A stretch of 48,990 bases of DNA from an uncultured Paracoccaceae bacterium (GTDB lineage Bacteria; Pseudomonadota; Alphaproteobacteria; Rhodobacterales; Rhodobacteraceae): contig CALKJA010000208.1 of assembly GCA_937995865.1 (NCBI GenBank), forward strand, positions 1-48,990, read 5' to 3'. Each line of letters opens with the position of its first letter. The stretch's first letter is position 1. The position numbers and the translations under genes are program-made. Shown here one piece after another: positions 16,929-24,421 of the stretch. Below the pieces are notes generated by a model. That model was not told where the DNA came from and searched no databases. It saw only the letters and a list, made by a program, of their open reading frames with translations.

Positions 16929-17891
16929 CTACCCCCAAAGCGCCGCCTCAGATGGATGCAAACCGTCTTGATCGAATTTCAAAGGAAAGGCGCGATCCTC
17001 GGCCAACAGAAGCGGCCCATCCAGATCAATCGTGGGCATACCTTGCGCTGCCAAAATCGCCGGGGCCATCGCAAGTGACGTGCCCACCATACAGCCCATC
17101 ATCAGATCAAAACCCTGAGCTTGGGCCGCTGCCTTTACGCGCAGCGCCTCGGTCAAACCGCCGGTCTTGTCGAGCTTGATATTCACCACATCATATTTGC
17201 CAGCAAGCGCCGGAAGCGTCCCAGTGTCGTGGCAGGATTCATCCGCGCAAACCGGCAAGGGCCGCGCCAATCCGCGCAAGGCCTCATCTTCACCGGCAGG
17301 CAGCGGTTGCTCCACCAAGGCCACGCCAAGTCTCACCATATGCGGTGCGAGATCTGAATAGATCTCGGCTGTCCAACCTTCGTTCGCGTCCACAATGATC
17401 GTCGCCTCTGGCGCACCACGGCGCACCGCTTCAAGCCGGGGCATATCGTCAGGCGTTCCCAGTTTGATTTTAAGAAGCGGACGGTGCGCATGCTTGCGCG
17501 CGCTGTCTTCCATCGCTTGCGGCGTCCCAAGAGACAGCGTGTAGGCCGAAATCACGGGCTTCGGCGCAACAAGACCGGCAAGCTCCCATGCGGGGACACC
17601 GGCCGCCTTGGCTTCAAGATCCCAAAGCGCACAATCGACGGCGTTGCGCGCCGCACCGGGCGCAAGCGCCTCTTGCAGCGCGCCGCGCGTGATATCTGCT
17701 GGAAGATCTGCAATCTGCTGCGCGACGCTGTCCATGCTTTCGCCATAACGGGCATAAGGCACACATTCGCCACGCCCTGAAACACCCTCACGTGTGATCC
17801 GCACGCTCAGCACCTTGGCCTCGCTCCGGGAGCCGCGTGAGATGGTAAACACTTCGGCCAAGCGAAACGATTCTGAGATGACTTCGATCAT
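16929..17891 (-). CDS. dgcA: N-acetyl-D-glutamate racemase (enolase superfamily)
   Basis: The 320-residue protein is an enolase-superfamily member related to L-Ala-D/L-Glu epimerases. The metal ligands and acid/base residues are visible: K141-I-K143, D168 with N170 (IIVDANEGW), E194 (VEQPLP), D217 (CADES) and K239 (NIKLDKTGG). Its gene lies downstream of dgcN on the same strand, a pairing described for D-glutamate catabolism: DgcN acetylates D-glutamate and DgcA racemises the product to N-acetyl-L-glutamate. Without that partner I would call it a dipeptide epimerase. The 163-base gap holds 11-bp repeats, so dgcA may have its own control. Confidence 0.8.
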   Translation of the reverse strand: MIEVISESFRLAEVFTISRGSRSEAKVLSVRITREGVSGRGECVPYARYGESMDSVAQQIADLPADITRGALQEALAPGAARNAVDCALWDLEAKAAGVPAWELAGLVAPKPVISAYTLSLGTPQAMEDSARKHAHRPLLKIKLGTPDDMPRLEAVRRGAPEATIIVDANEGWTAEIYSDLAPHMVRLGVALVEQPLPAGEDEALRGLARPLPVCADESCHDTGTLPALAGKYDVVNIKLDKTGGLTEALRVKAAAQAQGFDLMMGCMVGTSLAMAPAILAAQGMPTIDLDGPLLLAEDRAFPLKFDQDGLHPSEAALWG

Positions 17892-17967
17892 GGGTGATCG
17901 TCCTTCCCGGGCTTTGATCCCGTTAACCGCATGCTAACCTTAGTAAATGCGTGCTGCGAAAAACGCA

Positions 17968-18011
17968 TGTGCATCACTTGTGTATCGGATGTGCATCGGT
18001 TGTGCCCTGCC
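17968..18011. repeat. Four 11-bp tandem repeats upstream of dgcA
   Basis: The units tgtgcatcact, tgtgtatcgga, tgtgcatcggt and tgtgccctgcc follow without gaps, the last being degenerate. The 11-bp period matches one DNA helical turn, so the repeated tgtgcatc would lie on one face of the helix. The array is 77-120 bases upstream of the dgcA start. An inverted repeat atgcgt/acgcat (17947-17968) abuts it. Confidence 0.55.
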
Positions 18012-18028
18012 CAAATTCGCAGGCAGGG
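18005..18028 (-). terminator. Hairpin after dgcN
   Basis: Arms ccctgcc and ggcaggg enclose a 10-base loop, about 27 bases after the dgcN stop. There is no T-run; it may end or stabilise the dgcN message. Confidence 0.35.
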
Positions 18029-18054
18029 GACATGTTAACGCGGTGCGCGCAGAC

Positions 18055-19056
18055 CTAAATCGCGGCCAAGCCATCAACCAGACGGCCCGCTCCGTGGCGG
18101 AAAGGATCAACGGTGGGCAGCCCCATGCGCGCTTCAGTCTCTTCGCAATAGCGCAGCGCTTCTTCATCACCCAGATGCTGGGTGTTTATGGAAATACCCG
18201 TAATCTGACACGCCGGATTCACGATCCGCGCAATCGGCAAAACAGTATCGCGCAACTCCTCAAGAGACGGCAGAGAATAATCCGGCAAACCACGCATATG
18301 CGTGCGGGTTGGTTCATGGCTTAGCACAAGCGCATCAGGTTGGCCGCCATGGATCAACGCCATAGTAACCCCTGAATAAGACACATGAAAAAGCGATCCT
18401 TGGCCTTCGATGATATCCCAATGATCTGGGTCGTTATCCGGCGTGAGCCACTCCACAGCGCCAGCCATGAAATCAGCAATCACCGCGTCCAATGGCACAC
18501 CGCGCCCTGTGATCAAAATCCCGGTTTGGCCAGTCGGTGCAAAGGTGCTCTTCATACCGCGCTCGCGCATCTCGGCATCCACGGCCAGCCCGGTGTACAT
18601 CTTGCCCGCTGAGCAATCCGTGCCAACAGCCAGCATCCGTTTGCCGACCCGCTTTTTTCCGTTCGCAATCGGATACGCAACCGATGGGATCCGAACGTCA
18701 TGCAGCTGCGTTCCCGCGCGCTTGGCCTCGGCCTGCAAGTCGTTCTCATTCCTCAACAAATTATGCAGACCTGACGCGATATCATAGCCCATGTTGATCG
18801 CTTCGATTATGACAGCTTTCCATTCTTCAGAGATTACGCCGCCGCGATTGGCCACGCCGATGACCAAGGTTTTGGCCCCCGCTTCTTTGGCCTCTGCAAG
18901 CGTCATATCCGCAACCCCCACATCCGCGCCACAGCCATGCATGCGAAACTGCCCGACAGCGTTCTCAGGGCGCCAGTCTTTAATGCCTTGCGCAACTTTT
19001 GCGGCAAGTTGGTCCGGCACATCGCCAAGAAAAAGGAGATAGGGAGTAGGAATCAT
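18055..19056 (-). CDS. dgcN: N-acetyltransferase DgcN (DUF1611)
   Basis: The 333-residue protein matches the DUF1611/DgcN family: an N-terminal domain with the stretch GADVGVADMTLAEAKEAGA, then a P-loop-like motif GTDCSAGK (residues 145-152) in the second domain. The described role is N-acetylation of D-glutamate, the first step before DgcA. The product can enter arginine synthesis as N-acetyl-L-glutamate. The ATG at 19056 has a strong ribosome site (ggagg). No regulator gene adjoins it, unlike some described clusters. Confidence 0.8.
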   Translation of the reverse strand: MIPTPYLLFLGDVPDQLAAKVAQGIKDWRPENAVGQFRMHGCGADVGVADMTLAEAKEAGAKTLVIGVANRGGVISEEWKAVIIEAINMGYDIASGLHNLLRNENDLQAEAKRAGTQLHDVRIPSVAYPIANGKKRVGKRMLAVGTDCSAGKMYTGLAVDAEMRERGMKSTFAPTGQTGILITGRGVPLDAVIADFMAGAVEWLTPDNDPDHWDIIEGQGSLFHVSYSGVTMALIHGGQPDALVLSHEPTRTHMRGLPDYSLPSLEELRDTVLPIARIVNPACQITGISINTQHLGDEEALRYCEETEARMGLPTVDPFRHGAGRLVDGLAAI

Positions 19057-19279: not shown

Positions 19280-19325
19280 CGCAAGATCATATCGCCAATG
19301 CGAACAAAAACGTAATGATCTTGCG
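19280..19325 (+). promoter_or_regulatory. 11-bp inverted repeat in the mcl1 leader
   Basis: Arms cgcaagatcat (19280-19290) and atgatcttgcg (19315-19325) are perfect complements separated by 24 bases. The right arm ends eight bases before the mcl1 ATG and touches its ribosome site (gagg, 19325-19328). In the message it could form a hairpin that affects translation; as DNA it could be an operator. Confidence 0.45.
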
Positions 19326-19333
19326 AGGCCCCT

Positions 19334-20290
19334 ATGTCTTTTCGGCTGCAACCCACTCCGCCTGCTCGTCCAAATCGCTGCCAGCTCTTTGGTCCCGGCT
19401 CACGCCCTGCGATTTTTGAAAAAATGGCCACGTCGGCAGCAGATGTCATCAACCTCGATCTCGAAGACAGCGTGGCGCCAGATGACAAGGACGCAGCCCG
19501 CAAAAACATCATTCAAGCGATCGGCGATGTCGACTGGGGCTCAAAAACTCTGTCTGTTCGGATTAACGGCCTAGATACGCCCTATTGGTACCGAGATGTT
19601 GTTGATTTACTTGAGCAATCCAGCGACCGACTGGATCAAATTATGATCCCAAAGGTAGGTAACGCAGCGGATATCTATGCGGTGGATGCGCTCGTAACCG
19701 CCATTGAAACGGCCAAAGGCCGGAGCAAACCCATCCAGTTCGAGGTCATCATCGAAAGCGCCGCTGGCATCGCACATGTCGAGGAAATCGCCGCAGCCTC
19801 CTCTCGGATGGCTGCAATGAGCCTTGGCGCGGCCGATTTCGCGGCGTCGATGGGCATGGCCACGACGGGTATCGGCGGGACACAGGAAAACTACTATATG
19901 ATCCGTGAGGGTCAAAAGCATTGGTCTGATCCGTGGCATTGGGCGCAAACGGCTATCGTTGCAGCTTGCCGTACGCATGGCGTCTTGCCTGTAGATGGCC
20001 CTTTTGGCGATTTCTCCGATGATGAAGGCTATCGTGCACAAGCCCTGCGCTCGGCGACGCTTGGCATGGTGGGGAAATGGGCAATCCACCCCAAACAAAT
20101 CGCGATCGCCAATGACGTCTTTACCCCCTCAGAGGCCGCTGTGGCCGAGGCCCGCGAAATCCTTGCCGCGATGGAGCAAGCCAAAAAAGATGGGGCTGGC
20201 GCAACTGTTTACAAAGGTCGCCTTGTGGATATCGCATCCATAAAACAAGCCGAAGTCATCGTGAAACAGTCTGAACTTCTGTCCAACTAA
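19334..20290 (+). CDS. mcl1: L-malyl-CoA / beta-methylmalyl-CoA lyase
   Basis: The 318-residue protein matches the Rhodobacter Mcl1 type from its first residues (MSFRLQPTPPARPNRCQLFG). It is a TIM-barrel HpcH/CitE-family lyase with the substrate-binding R76 and Mg2+ ligands E141 (EVIIESAAG) and D168 (SLGAADFA). In the ethylmalonyl-CoA pathway it cleaves beta-methylmalyl-CoA to glyoxylate and propionyl-CoA and condenses acetyl-CoA with glyoxylate to malyl-CoA. Its presence implies acetate or C1/C2 assimilation without the classical glyoxylate bypass. It stands alone with a structured leader upstream and an unusual G-rich hairpin downstream. Confidence 0.92.
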   Translation: MSFRLQPTPPARPNRCQLFGPGSRPAIFEKMATSAADVINLDLEDSVAPDDKDAARKNIIQAIGDVDWGSKTLSVRINGLDTPYWYRDVVDLLEQSSDRLDQIMIPKVGNAADIYAVDALVTAIETAKGRSKPIQFEVIIESAAGIAHVEEIAAASSRMAAMSLGAADFAASMGMATTGIGGTQENYYMIREGQKHWSDPWHWAQTAIVAACRTHGVLPVDGPFGDFSDDEGYRAQALRSATLGMVGKWAIHPKQIAIANDVFTPSEAAVAEAREILAAMEQAKKDGAGATVYKGRLVDIASIKQAEVIVKQSELLSN

Positions 20291-20374
20291 CGCTTAAATG
20301 GTCCAGACTCTGCCCCGGCGGGGCCAACACCCCAAGCCAGCCTAGCCAGAGCTATGCGCATCCGGCCTCACAAC

Positions 20375-20427
20375 CCGCCCTTTTCGAAGGACGGGGAGGG
20401 CGGGTGGGCGTCCTTCGAAAAGGGCGG
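20375..20427. repeat. 19-bp hairpin with G-quadruplex loop
   Basis: Perfect 19-base arms (20375-20393, ccgcccttttcgaaggacg; and 20409-20427, its exact complement) enclose a 15-base loop gggagggcgggtggg. The loop is four G3 runs with one-base spacers, the most favourable G-quadruplex pattern. It lies 84 bases after mcl1 and 43 bases before lysA, both on the plus strand. It could end mcl1 transcription or control lysA. No T-run follows. Confidence 0.8.
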
Positions 20428-20470
20428 CACGACGCTTGCCCCAATCGCACCGTCAGGGTAACGCGTTGCC

Positions 20471-21739
20471 ATGGATCATTTTCTTTATAAAAACGGCGCA
20501 CTACACGCCGAGGACGTCCCGCTAGCGGAGATCGCAGCAGCCGTTGGAACACCCTTTTATGTGTATTCCACAGCCACACTCTTGCGCCATTTTAAGCTTT
20601 TTGATGATGCGCTTAACTGGGCCGATGATCACCTTGTCTGCTTTGCGATGAAAAGCGCCTCAAATCAGGCAATCCTTAAACTTCTGGGCGATGCCGGAGC
20701 GGGAATGGATGTAGTTTCGGGCGGCGAATATGCCCGCGCCCGTGCGGCGGGCATCCCGGGCGATCGCATCGTTTTCTCAGGCGTCGGCAAAACACGCGAT
20801 GAAATGCGTCAGGCCCTGAATGGCGGCATTCGGCAGTTTAATGTCGAGAGCGAGCCCGAGATGCGAGTGCTCTCCGAGATCGCAACCAGTCTGGACGTGA
20901 TCGCCCCCATAACGATCCGTGTGAATCCGGACGTCGATGCCAAGACAAACGAAAAAATCGCAACTGGCCGCAAGGGGGACAAATTCGGCATTCCGATTTC
21001 CCGCGCGCGCGAAGTCTACGCAATGGCCGCAAGTCTCCCCGGTTTGAAAGTCATTGGGATTGATGTGCATATCGGCTCCCAGCTGACGGATCTGGAGCCA
21101 TTTCGAGCAGCCTACGAAAAAGTGGCAAATCTAACAAAGATGCTTCGTGAAGAAGGCCATGAGATCACGCGGCTTGATCTTGGAGGCGGGCTTGGCATTC
21201 CTTATGCGCGCTCCAACCTTGCTCCACCTTTGCCCTCAGACTATGGCAAACTCATCCAAGAGACCGTCGGCCATTTAGGTTGCGAGATTGAGATTGAACC
21301 GGGGCGTCTTGTCTCTGGCAATGCAGGCATGCTTGTTGCCCAGACGATCTATATCAAAGAAGGCGAAGATCGAAAATTTTTGATCATTGATGCCGCGATG
21401 AATGATCTGATCCGGCCTGCTATGTATGGCGCGCATCACGATATTGTTCCAATCATCGAACCCACCCCCGGCATGGAGCTGGCAACATATGATATCGTCG
21501 GCCCGATATGCGAAAGCGGCGATACATTTGCGAAACACCGTGAATTGCCCGCGATCAAAGAAGGCGAACTTGTTGGGTTCCGATCCGCCGGTGCCTATGG
21601 CGCGGTAATGTCGAGCGAGTACAACACGCGCCCATTGATCCCGGAAGTTTTGGTACAAGGTGATCAATTCGCGGTTATCCGCCCACGTCCGACCTTTGAC
21701 GACATCATTAATCGAGATACCATCCCTGAGTGGCTATGA
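20471..21739 (+). CDS. lysA: Diaminopimelate decarboxylase
   Basis: The 422-residue PLP enzyme decarboxylates meso-diaminopimelate to L-lysine, the last step of lysine synthesis. Visible features are the PLP-lysine K61 (VCFAMKSASN), the HIGSQL motif, the glycine-rich phosphate loop RLDLGGGLG, EPGRLVSGNAG and the C-terminal CESGDTFAK that carries the active-site Cys from the partner subunit. It is followed after 27 bases by the TIGR02302 gene. In many relatives lysA directly follows argH and a small lipoprotein gene; here those are 10 kb away on the other strand. Confidence 0.95.
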   Translation: MDHFLYKNGALHAEDVPLAEIAAAVGTPFYVYSTATLLRHFKLFDDALNWADDHLVCFAMKSASNQAILKLLGDAGAGMDVVSGGEYARARAAGIPGDRIVFSGVGKTRDEMRQALNGGIRQFNVESEPEMRVLSEIATSLDVIAPITIRVNPDVDAKTNEKIATGRKGDKFGIPISRAREVYAMAASLPGLKVIGIDVHIGSQLTDLEPFRAAYEKVANLTKMLREEGHEITRLDLGGGLGIPYARSNLAPPLPSDYGKLIQETVGHLGCEIEIEPGRLVSGNAGMLVAQTIYIKEGEDRKFLIIDAAMNDLIRPAMYGAHHDIVPIIEPTPGMELATYDIVGPICESGDTFAKHRELPAIKEGELVGFRSAGAYGAVMSSEYNTRPLIPEVLVQGDQFAVIRPRPTFDDIINRDTIPEWL

Positions 21740-21766
21740 TGCCGCGATCCGAAGCGGAGACCGGGA

Positions 21767-24421
21767 ATGAGCGCTTATCAACGCAAAGCTGACTTGCCCA
21801 AAGGCGCGCGCCGCGCAATCCGTTGGACGCGCGCAGGCATGTTTGCAGAGCGTTTGACGCAGAGCTTTTGGCCGCTTTGGTCCGTAGCCTTTATCGCTTT
21901 GGGCGCGCTTATGCTGGGGTATCCTTGGGCCTTCCTGTTTGAGGCCGCATGGGCGGGTATCATCTTGATGGTGCTTGCAGCGATCACTGCCCTTGTTATT
22001 GGTATGCAGCGCTTCCGACGGCCGACACTGCAAGAGGCTGAGAACAGGCTTGATGCCGCTCTTACCGGGCGACCGATCAGCACATTGCAAGACACGCTCG
22101 CGATTGGCCAAGATGACTCTCAAGCAACGGCTGTTTGGCAAGCCCACCGTGCGCGCATGGCTGAGTGCGCTGCGGCGGCGAAACCCGTTTACCCGGCGCT
22201 AAACATGGCCCGACGAGATCCGTATGCGCTGCGCTACGTGGCAGTTCTTGTACTGGTTGTCGGTTTGCTATTTGGCTCGATCTTCCGTGTCGGTCAGGTG
22301 GGTGATCTTGCCCCCGGCACGGCGCAAGCAGCACTTGGTCCCGCGTGGGAAGGCTGGGCCGAACCACCTCGCTACACCGGTTTGCCGACGATCTATTTGC
22401 CTGATGTCACAGACCCGGCGCTGACGGTCCCACAAGGCTCAAACATCACTGTGCGCCTTTATGGTGAAATCGGCGTACTCTCCGTGGATGAGACAGTCTC
22501 AGGACGGCAGGCCCCTGCGGACGGAGACGCAACAGACGTTGCCGCGCCCGTGCATAGCTTCGACGTCATGCAGCCCGGAATGATCGTAATTGATGGCGCA
22601 GGCGGCCGCAGCTGGGAGGTGGCAATCAAGCCGGATCAGCCACCCACGGTTTCGTTTTCGATTGAATTTTCAAACGACGCCGCGCTGGAACGGGCCACGA
22701 CCCTGGACGAGGCGTTCACGGTCCGTGACGATTATGCCGTTGTTGCGGGTAAAGCGCGATTTGAGCTTTTACTTAATCGTGTGGATCGCCGGCATGGGCT
22801 AACCATACCGCCAGAACCTCGCGCGCTTTTGGAATTGCCGCTGCCAATGACCATTTCCGGTGACCGCTCAGGGTTTTCCGAAGTTTTGACCGAAGATCTC
22901 AGCCAGCATCCGTGGGCAAATTTGCCCGTTTCACTGGATCTTGAGGTGATTGACGAGCTGGACCAGCGTGGCAGGAGTAAAGCCAAAACGATGCTGATGC
23001 CCGGCCGTCGGTTTTTTGATCCAATCGCTGCGGCCGTTATTGAACAGCGCCGCGATCTCTTGTGGAATCGGGAAAACGCCGCGCGGATCGCGCAAATCTT
23101 GCGAACCATAACCTATGATGCTGATGGACTATTCCGGCAGGAAGTCACCCTGCTGCGGATGCGCAATGTGTTGAAAAAGCTCGAGACACTTGCACCTTAC
23201 GGCATGTCTGACACGCAACAGGCCGAGTTAGCGCAGGTGCTTTGGGATCTTGCGATCCAACTGGAAGAAGGCGATCTGAACGATGCGGCAATGCGACTTC
23301 AGCGCGCACAGGAGCGGCTGCAAGAGGCCATCGAAAATGGCGCGACTGACGAAGAAATCGCTGAACTGATGCAAGAGCTTCGCGAGGCAATGCAAGATTA
23401 CATGCAGCAGTTGGCAGAAAGTCAGGACCCCTCCCAACAGCAGCAACCTCAGAACCCGGACAACATGCAGGAGATGACCCAAGACGACCTGCAAGACATG
23501 CTGGACCGCATTCAGGAGCTGATGGAAGAGGGTCGCATGGCCGAAGCGCAAGAGCTTCTCGAACAGCTTCAGCAGATGATGGAAAATATGCAGGTCCAAC
23601 AAAGCCAAAGTGGTCAGGATGGGCAACCATCCGAGGGTCAGCAATCCATGGACGATCTGGCTGAGACGCTGCGCGAGCAGCAAGGCTTGAGCGACGAGAG
23701 CTTTGAAGAACTCCAAGAGCAATTTGGCGAGAACAGCGAACAAGGAGACCGCGGTCAGGAGCAGCAACAAGGTGAAGGCCAGCAAGGTCAGCAAGACGGC
23801 CAGCAACAAGGTCAGCCCGGCCAGAGCCAGCAAGGACAACAAGGCGGCGAAGGTGGACAGGGCGGCGAACAAGGCAACCAGCAAGGCGGCGGAAGCGGTG
23901 ATCAGGCCGGAGATTTGCAACAAGGCCTTGCGGACCGGCAGCAGGCTCTGCGCCGGGAGTTAGAGCGCCAACGTCAAAACCTGCCCGGCGGCGGCACCCC
24001 AGAAGGAGAAACCGCCCGTGACGCGCTAGATCGCGCGGGTGACGCGATGGATAATGCCGAAGAAAACTTGCGCGACAACAATATTGCCGAAGCCATTGAT
24101 GATCAGGCTGAGGCGATGGACGCTTTGCGCGACGGGATGCAGGCGCTTGCTGATCGAATGGCCCAGCAACAACAGCAGCAAGGCCAAGGCGAACAAAACG
24201 GCGATCAAACAGGCAACGCCAACCCCGAGCAACGGGACCCATTGGGCCGTGAGCCGGGCGAAAGCGGGCAACTGGGATCAGATGAGGAGCTGTTGCGCGG
24301 GGACGATGTGAACCGCCGCGCAGAAGAGCTTTTAGACGAGATTCGCCGTCGTAGCGCGCAAGCCGAGCGAGATCAGGCTGAACGCGACTATCTCAATCGG
24401 TTGTTGGAAAGGTTCCAGTAA
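21767..24421 (+). CDS. TIGR02302 / DUF4175 membrane protein
   Basis: The 884-residue protein starts with two hydrophobic segments (about 35-55 and 60-80) and a third near 155-175, then a large periplasmic-type region. From about residue 485 it becomes helical and coiled-coil, and residues 550-825 are extremely rich in Gln/Gly/Asp/Glu with repeated QQGQ units. A conserved R/L/E-rich helix ends the protein. This matches the TIGR02302 family of Alphaproteobacteria, of unknown function, conserved next to lysA. The context with FtsEX, PlsC and AccA suggests envelope biology, which is inference. Confidence 0.88.
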   Translation: MSAYQRKADLPKGARRAIRWTRAGMFAERLTQSFWPLWSVAFIALGALMLGYPWAFLFEAAWAGIILMVLAAITALVIGMQRFRRPTLQEAENRLDAALTGRPISTLQDTLAIGQDDSQATAVWQAHRARMAECAAAAKPVYPALNMARRDPYALRYVAVLVLVVGLLFGSIFRVGQVGDLAPGTAQAALGPAWEGWAEPPRYTGLPTIYLPDVTDPALTVPQGSNITVRLYGEIGVLSVDETVSGRQAPADGDATDVAAPVHSFDVMQPGMIVIDGAGGRSWEVAIKPDQPPTVSFSIEFSNDAALERATTLDEAFTVRDDYAVVAGKARFELLLNRVDRRHGLTIPPEPRALLELPLPMTISGDRSGFSEVLTEDLSQHPWANLPVSLDLEVIDELDQRGRSKAKTMLMPGRRFFDPIAAAVIEQRRDLLWNRENAARIAQILRTITYDADGLFRQEVTLLRMRNVLKKLETLAPYGMSDTQQAELAQVLWDLAIQLEEGDLNDAAMRLQRAQERLQEAIENGATDEEIAELMQELREAMQDYMQQLAESQDPSQQQQPQNPDNMQEMTQDDLQDMLDRIQELMEEGRMAEAQELLEQLQQMMENMQVQQSQSGQDGQPSEGQQSMDDLAETLREQQGLSDESFEELQEQFGENSEQGDRGQEQQQGEGQQGQQDGQQQGQPGQSQQGQQGGEGGQGGEQGNQQGGGSGDQAGDLQQGLADRQQALRRELERQRQNLPGGGTPEGETARDALDRAGDAMDNAEENLRDNNIAEAIDDQAEAMDALRDGMQALADRMAQQQQQQGQGEQNGDQTGNANPEQRDPLGREPGESGQLGSDEELLRGDDVNRRAEELLDEIRRRSAQAERDQAERDYLNRLLERFQ

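Follow-up and report, generated by a model that had tools for sequence, protein, structure and literature searches.

What is a perfect hairpin with a G-quadruplex (G4) motif in its loop doing between two genes of an uncultured Paracoccaceae bacterium? The element lies within a 48,990-nt stretch of DNA (contig CALKJA010000208.1 of assembly GCA_937995865.1; hereafter the window), 84 nt past the stop codon of a gene of the HpcH/HpaI aldolase/citrate lyase type (citE/mcl1-type; 19334–20290, plus strand) and 43 nt ahead of the start of lysA, which encodes diaminopimelate decarboxylase (20471–21739, plus strand). The upstream gene falls below the NCBIfam equivalog cut-offs and reaches none of them; the name mcl1, which we keep for convenience, is that of an earlier note on this DNA. 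Upstream of this pair, on the minus strand (16929–19056), are genes identified by NCBIfam as DgcA and DgcN (N-acetyl-D-Glu racemase and N-acetyltransferase).

The anatomy of the hairpin is clear. On the plus strand, the left arm (20375–20393) and the right arm (20409–20427) pair without a mismatch over 19 bp, exactly at these coordinates, and enclose a loop (20394–20408) that reads GGG-A-GGG-C-GGG-T-GGG (GGGAGGGCGGGTGGG). This loop has the four G3 runs and short spacers, here of one base each, of a canonical G4 motif. The hairpin is the longest perfect one in the window, followed by one of 11 bp (n = 7; arms of at least 10 bp, loops of up to 40 nt), and 20 control sequences of equal size, generated by a first-order Markov model, gave a maximum of 12 bp. 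Hence the 19-bp inverted repeat is far beyond chance expectation. The earlier note had described a perfect 19-bp stem with a canonical four-run G4 loop on the plus strand only, and both parts of that description are borne out, the loop being C-rich on the minus strand.

Folding as single-stranded DNA gives exactly the 19-bp stem on both strands (–23.9 and –23.5 kcal/mol; z = –7.7 and –7.8). When the RNA is folded with a quadruplex term, a three-layer G4 sits atop an 18-bp stem, and the loop is accordingly a predicted quadruplex by the energy model. In the absence of that term, a 53-nt RNA retains the stem and longer RNAs lose it. The 86-nt RNA 20360–20445, so folded, forms an alternative hairpin at 20373–20405 (plus strand; 14 pairs, including 3 G-U) in which the left arm pairs with the G-rich loop, ACCCGCCCTTTTCG with CGGGGAGGGCGGGT; intergenic RNAs of 180 and 191 nt adopt still other folds that lack the 19-bp stem.

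The window hairpin belongs to a dispersed family of ~50-bp hairpins in the Rhodobacteraceae, mostly found between genes. Members have a near-perfect stem of 16–19 bp (~17) whose sequence is mostly unrelated between copies; a C-G/G-C step closes it, and the loop is of the (G3N)3G3 type. Across 70 loci, perfect arms of at least 9 bp flank 29 of 62 distinct one-base-spacer G4 places; for places drawn at random from these loci, of which some may sit on the same hairpins, the figure is 26 of 2000. A tolerant stem score splits 43 distinct G4 places into 29 at 12.5 or above and 14 at 5.2 or below, the best of 600 controls scoring 9.2. Hairpins can also be sought with no G4 required: in 400 kb of genome G258, all five perfect hairpins of at least 13 bp have loops with at least three GGG runs. 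Elsewhere the corresponding counts are 1/7 (G088), 0/1 (G317), 2/11 (G256), 0/2 (G002) and 0/1 (G000, the window's own genome), so that G258 is the strongest case. The loop pattern with the C-G closing step is present in 62 of 388 genomes of the family. Pattern matches per genome range from none to dozens; 26 are dispersed in G088 and 17 in G258. Compared with a reversed-pattern control, matches to the closing-step pattern are far in excess in G088 (26 vs 3), G381 (15 vs 0), G258 (12 vs 0) and G392 (11 vs 0), whereas the control is equal, higher or close in G335 (5 vs 5), G270 (0 vs 13) and G055 (19 vs 16). Some genomes have hundreds of matches to GGGNGGGNGGGNGGG, forward and reverse (G365, 847/873; G007, 409/187; G399, 258/247); in genomes other than these three, poly-G tracts explain many of the matches listed.

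Covariance models place the window copy within this family. Both models match a 47-nt core on the plus strand (20378–20424). Model R1, which had the window in its training set, scores this core at 61.7 bits; model R2, for which 46 copies were used with the window and all G258 loci left out of the training, gives the window copy 62.5 bits (E = 8e-12) and finds six places in G258 at E below 0.001. By R2, the window copy has the family's ~16 paired positions, C-G/G-C closing step and (G3N)3G3 loop. In 385 alphaproteobacterial genomes, R1 matched only the window's own genome and G093 (Rhodobacteraceae) among at most 16 candidates scored per genome, so weak or further copies may be missed. Rfam models gave two matches up to E = 5 in the interval 19300–21800, both far below gathering; one of these, to mir-3122, falls on the hairpin (20.8 bits vs a gathering score of 92).

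How well is the element kept at this particular place? The window's own genome (87% complete) has the arms in single copy, and one family copy was found in it. The one-base-spacer G4 pattern occurs twice there. Its other occurrence lies at a contig end (L001 1–60, the start of G000:C108), with its G-runs in a stem arm (GGTGGGTGGG CGGG CCCACCCACC). We rejected the arms as a repeat of this genome, the best other site having 2 mismatches and lying within an open reading frame. We likewise rejected them as a family-wide motif, for they occur in 2 of 394 genomes, the window's own and G292, in the latter overlapping open reading frames. The G292 site (L111 1501–1532) is a hairpin with the window's inner arms (CCTTTTCGAAGG..CCTTCGAAAAGG) and an 8-nt loop, GGGAAGGT, that overlaps the end of a 467-aa open reading frame.

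The comparison with congeners covers two genomes. In G001 (L031, JAKVCO010000012.1), the mcl1–lysA order is kept, and the junction holds an unrelated hairpin in which the element is not seen. This hairpin, GAAGGGTGCAAAAGGCCTTTTGCGCCCTTC, is found at L031 1949–1978 and L015 1606–1635. In G002, mcl1 and lysA lie 91 kb apart, and the 200 kb holding them has no strong R1 match and one weak one, elsewhere. The mcl1–lysA copy is therefore not conserved at its place. G002 also has a 22-bp perfect stem with loop CCACCACCC (L144 8623–8675; 22.1 bits with R1, E = 0.15), possibly a two-layer relative. Among the lysA loci of 80 genomes, there is no R1 match up to E = 1.

Conservation of the structure itself is a different matter. 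In alignment A1, which comprises 81 copies, each of the 16 stem pairs shows variation in both partners, and 96.0% of cells are paired. Double changes occupy 502 cells, whereas shuffled alignments average 144. The covariation score reaches 0.994; shuffling gives 0.21, and slid registers no more than 0.25. A1 was restricted to flush hairpins that pair at 14 or more of the 16 positions, G-U included, and that passed a redundancy filter; they were drawn from 92 flush hairpins among 112 hairpins and 137 distinct G4 places, and the places for L163–L202 were hand-picked to exclude poly-G tracts. Constancy of the loop in A1 arises partly by construction, since copies were found by their G4 pattern. 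Unrelated stems would yield the same covariation, so homology of place is the stronger test. Beside homologous amidohydrolase genes (61–81% identical), the hairpin is retained in five genera (G400, G104, G091, G287 and G304). There, 77 of 80 cells are paired in a gapless register, and 8 of the 16 pairs have changed on both sides. These comparisons indicate that the hairpin structure is under selection. Around the locus centres of L132, L245 and L251, from three genera, an M20-type amidohydrolase gene is followed by an agmatinase gene, with the G4-capped hairpin between them; at L238 and L242 no agmatinase comes directly next in the gene calls. The earlier note had named conservation among close relatives as one test of its reading. 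On that point the outcome is mixed: the element type recurs across the family with covarying stems, but the element is missing from this junction in both congeners.

Many copies are placed close to stop codons. In 21 of 29 hairpins, the gene lying 3′ of the G4 strand is encoded on the opposite strand and ends no more than 50 nt from the loop, counted from its stop codon. Because such a gene is read opposite to the G4 strand, its mRNA has the C-rich loop and its template strand has the G4. The same arrangement is seen within 60 nt in 25 of 47 hairpins and within 40 nt of the core in 23 of 37 model matches, these three sets being overlapping ones. Gene calls came from a simple codon-based caller written for the analysis, and we re-read the open frames at the exceptions. 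About three of these (L319, L324, L328) suggest wrong gene calls and would then follow the rule; about three others (L326, L406, L329) look like real cases in which both neighbours are read in the G4 sense; and the rest (L215, L219, L314) are ambiguous. The stop-codon rule is thus common, not universal. The window copy departs from the typical context. Both its neighbours are read in the G4 sense, from the plus strand, so that the G4 would lie in the mRNA, an arrangement shared by 7 of 47 copies in addition to L326, L406 and L329. It is a copy of the minority type, with its G4 in the mRNA sense.

A second regularity concerns replication. It is an established rule that the leading strand is the G-rich strand, and we adopted it to orient the copies by GC skew. 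In 36 of 37 model matches (from G088, G317, G256 and G258; the exception is L404), the G4 lies on the G-poor, leading-template strand. These 37 are the R1 matches at E up to 0.0061 in sampled regions, to the exclusion of five weaker rows (E 0.075–0.56; L211, L210, L391, L407 and L144 of the congener), the window's own match and L153. Many of the regions were picked for holding a pattern match, strand disregarded, and where the skew was close to zero (0.005 at L316), its sign still decided the class. Leading-strand genes number only 240 of 430 in G088 and 170 of 362 in G317, so gene strand alone does not explain the polarity, which is kept also where gene orientation is unusual. At an expectation of 0.56, the binomial p is 1.4e-8 for copies that are not fully independent. 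The opposite preference is seen for plain G4s of the same DNA (91 leading- vs 33 lagging-sense). A cruder count gave 20 to 2, with 2 of 22 hairpins on the leading strand, and within a subset of ten matches taken as new, nine agree. In G381 and G335, where the count is by strand alone, the pattern has matches on both strands of single contigs; these were counted against the polarity. In the window, the GC skew of the plus strand is weak (–0.018), with the sign expected. Clustering of copies toward the terminus, hinted at in G317, was not borne out in G256, and we dropped it.

What might such an element do? We tentatively favor, with somewhat less than even confidence, the reading of a REP-like structural element that is located at the ends of genes and kept in one replication orientation. 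In most copies, directly 3′ of a stop codon, the mRNA would carry a rigid stem with a C-rich loop, which could pause polymerase and block 3′ exonucleases and in this way shape 3′ ends or decay; meanwhile, the template strand would bear the G4. If the G4 were exposed on the template of the lagging strand, the hairpin would impede replication, and replication would remove such copies. On this proposal, nearly all surviving copies therefore have the G4 on the leading template. The window copy would fit the expected orientation, judging by the weakly negative skew, yet it lies between genes read in the G4 sense. A transcript running from mcl1 to lysA would bear a G4-capped stem, a predicted barrier that may act as a 3′-end former or a decay block.

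It is also possible, though we consider it doubtful, that these hairpins are a selfish or domesticated single-strand DNA repeat, mobile in the manner of REPs and spread on the lagging template by an unknown enzyme. Insertion would then set the strand polarity, and sites after stop codons would be those that are tolerated. Several observations on turnover accord with this. In 18 pairs of like copies, similarity is confined to the hairpin, with background identity from the end of the stem and no shared flanks. Stems are more alike within a genome (mean 0.563 vs 0.449). At the one site compared between the congeners G258 and G411, the element is absent from G411, leaving a clean gap of 46 nt immediately 3′ of the stop codon. 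Most stems, however, are not copies of one another, and the covarying hairpins beside homologous amidohydrolase genes in five genera suggest that the structure is put to use. Moreover, Y1_Tnp, the domain of REP transposases, was found in one of the 14 genomes that bear the element, in three of 14 other genomes, and not in the window's own. This domain does not track the element, and a Y1 transposase as the driver has no support. Two other routes of spread were rejected as well. Viral contigs gave no exact match to the arm, and 23 of them carry the loop motif with no covariance match above 21.6 bits, so the hairpin is lacking there. Plasmid similarity amounted to short matches in 4 records, which at E = 0.5 covered 22–24% of the query.

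A role in replication or chromosome layout would take the polarity as its starting point. The element might be a polar barrier to forks moving the wrong way, or a directional mark: a helicase on the lagging template would meet the C-loop strand in the normal direction and the G4 hairpin in the wrong one. The near-uniform orientation by GC skew, its persistence beside unusually oriented genes and its opposition to that of plain G4s all fit. This reading leaves the close tie to stop codons unexplained, and copies in G256 are not limited to the terminus half; nor would pattern matches be expected to vary from none to dozens per genome. We think it unlikely. Also improbable, in our judgment, is a self-sufficient, protein-free directional mark of the chromosome, in which one-way G4-capped hairpins would be polar gates for the fork and, at gene ends, for RNA polymerase. 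Tus-Ter and KOPS-FtsK are protein-based systems that do the directional job proposed here for a DNA structure.

Very little probability attaches to the idea that the hairpins are functionless by-products of mutation, in which a G4 causes the nascent strand to fold back and copy itself, leaving perfect palindromes around it. Such a process could yield perfect stems of unrelated sequence around a fixed loop, as well as gains or losses between congeners. It does not predict common stem features with a C-G closing step, near-identical dispersed copies or a location after stop codons, and covariation beside homologous genes already weakens it.

Least probable of all is an ordinary intrinsic terminator of mcl1 with a G-rich loop by chance, which would suit the position between two genes and the presence of another hairpin at this junction in G001, but not the want of a T-run 3′ of the stem or the recurrence of loop motif and polarity in relatives. 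An intrinsic terminator is a GC-rich hairpin followed by a U-run; in the window, the 20 nt after the stem contain no run of four T on the plus strand, nor do the 20 nt on the minus strand. Runs of four or more T near the hairpin are found in 5 of 111 family copies in the C-sense and 1 of 111 in the G-sense. The earlier note had likewise seen no standard terminator form that it recognised. Our terminator scan was limited to loops of 3–8 nt and could not judge the window hairpin.

Taken as a REP-like structural element, the hairpin invites comparison with several known systems. Intercistronic hairpins that stabilize mRNA are found in the puf operon of Rhodobacter and in the malE-malF REP. Like these, family members can lie just past a stop codon between co-directional genes, as in the amidohydrolase–agmatinase pairs; to our knowledge, the puf and malE-malF hairpins have no constant G4 or C-rich loop and no replication polarity. 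GTAG is the mark of REP sequences and is absent from the window element. In contrast to REPs, the stems here are mostly unrelated, the loop is constant and there is replication polarity. REP/BIME sequences and their RAYT (Y1 HUH) partners are the subject of PMC2817692. The likeness to the present family is that of short, dispersed extragenic palindromes near gene ends whose copies are more alike within a genome; in contrast to that system, a Y1 partner is lacking from 13 of the 14 genomes that bear the present element.

Other quadruplex-forming or structured repeats are comparable in part. The Xanthomonas GGGAATC and Nostoc GGGGA(C/T)T repeats are tandem, intergenic heptamers that, after a stop codon, lie preferably on the sense strand, according to the accessible text of PMC4692102. 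They resemble the present family in being intergenic and G4-forming, with many within 50 bp of a stop codon; they differ in being tandem and on both chromosome strands (in Xcc, 84 plus and 102 minus), and the same text describes no stem-loop with a G4 in its loop. The intrastrand triplex elements TMECO/PIT, in the accessible part of PMC4666352, have a fixed 37-nt consensus, CCCTCNCCC..GGGNGAGGG..GGGNGAGGG, show no strand bias and block polymerase in vitro. They too combine an intergenic C-rich/G-rich hairpin with a further G-rich segment; here, however, that segment is the loop and the stems vary freely. By direct reading, the consensus as given there (CCCTCNCCC N3-6 GGGNGAGGG N3 GGGNGAGGG) is absent from the window element. 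In a survey of perfect inverted repeats (PMC13155455), the accessible text reports that arms of at least 10 bp are enriched after stop codons; its spacers reach 8 bp, so 15-nt loops are invisible to it. The accessible passages of PMC5123632 describe a G4 upstream of nasT in Paracoccus denitrificans and no stem. We found no description of the element in the open-access literature, covered as listings, abstract starts and passages, with subscription papers outside the scope; the text of PMC2267715 gave no match to element terms.

The function of natural G4s in bacteria is poorly settled because most motifs resemble composition noise. In this family, the hairpin covaries and its constant part is the G4, which runs against GC skew, has a near-fixed replication orientation in the sampled genomes and is preferred after stop codons. 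For in vivo tests of G4 hairpins, the family supplies sites, copies at homologous places, an allele without the element and orientation controls that are already built in, and so makes a little-studied DNA structure of the Rhodobacteraceae directly testable.
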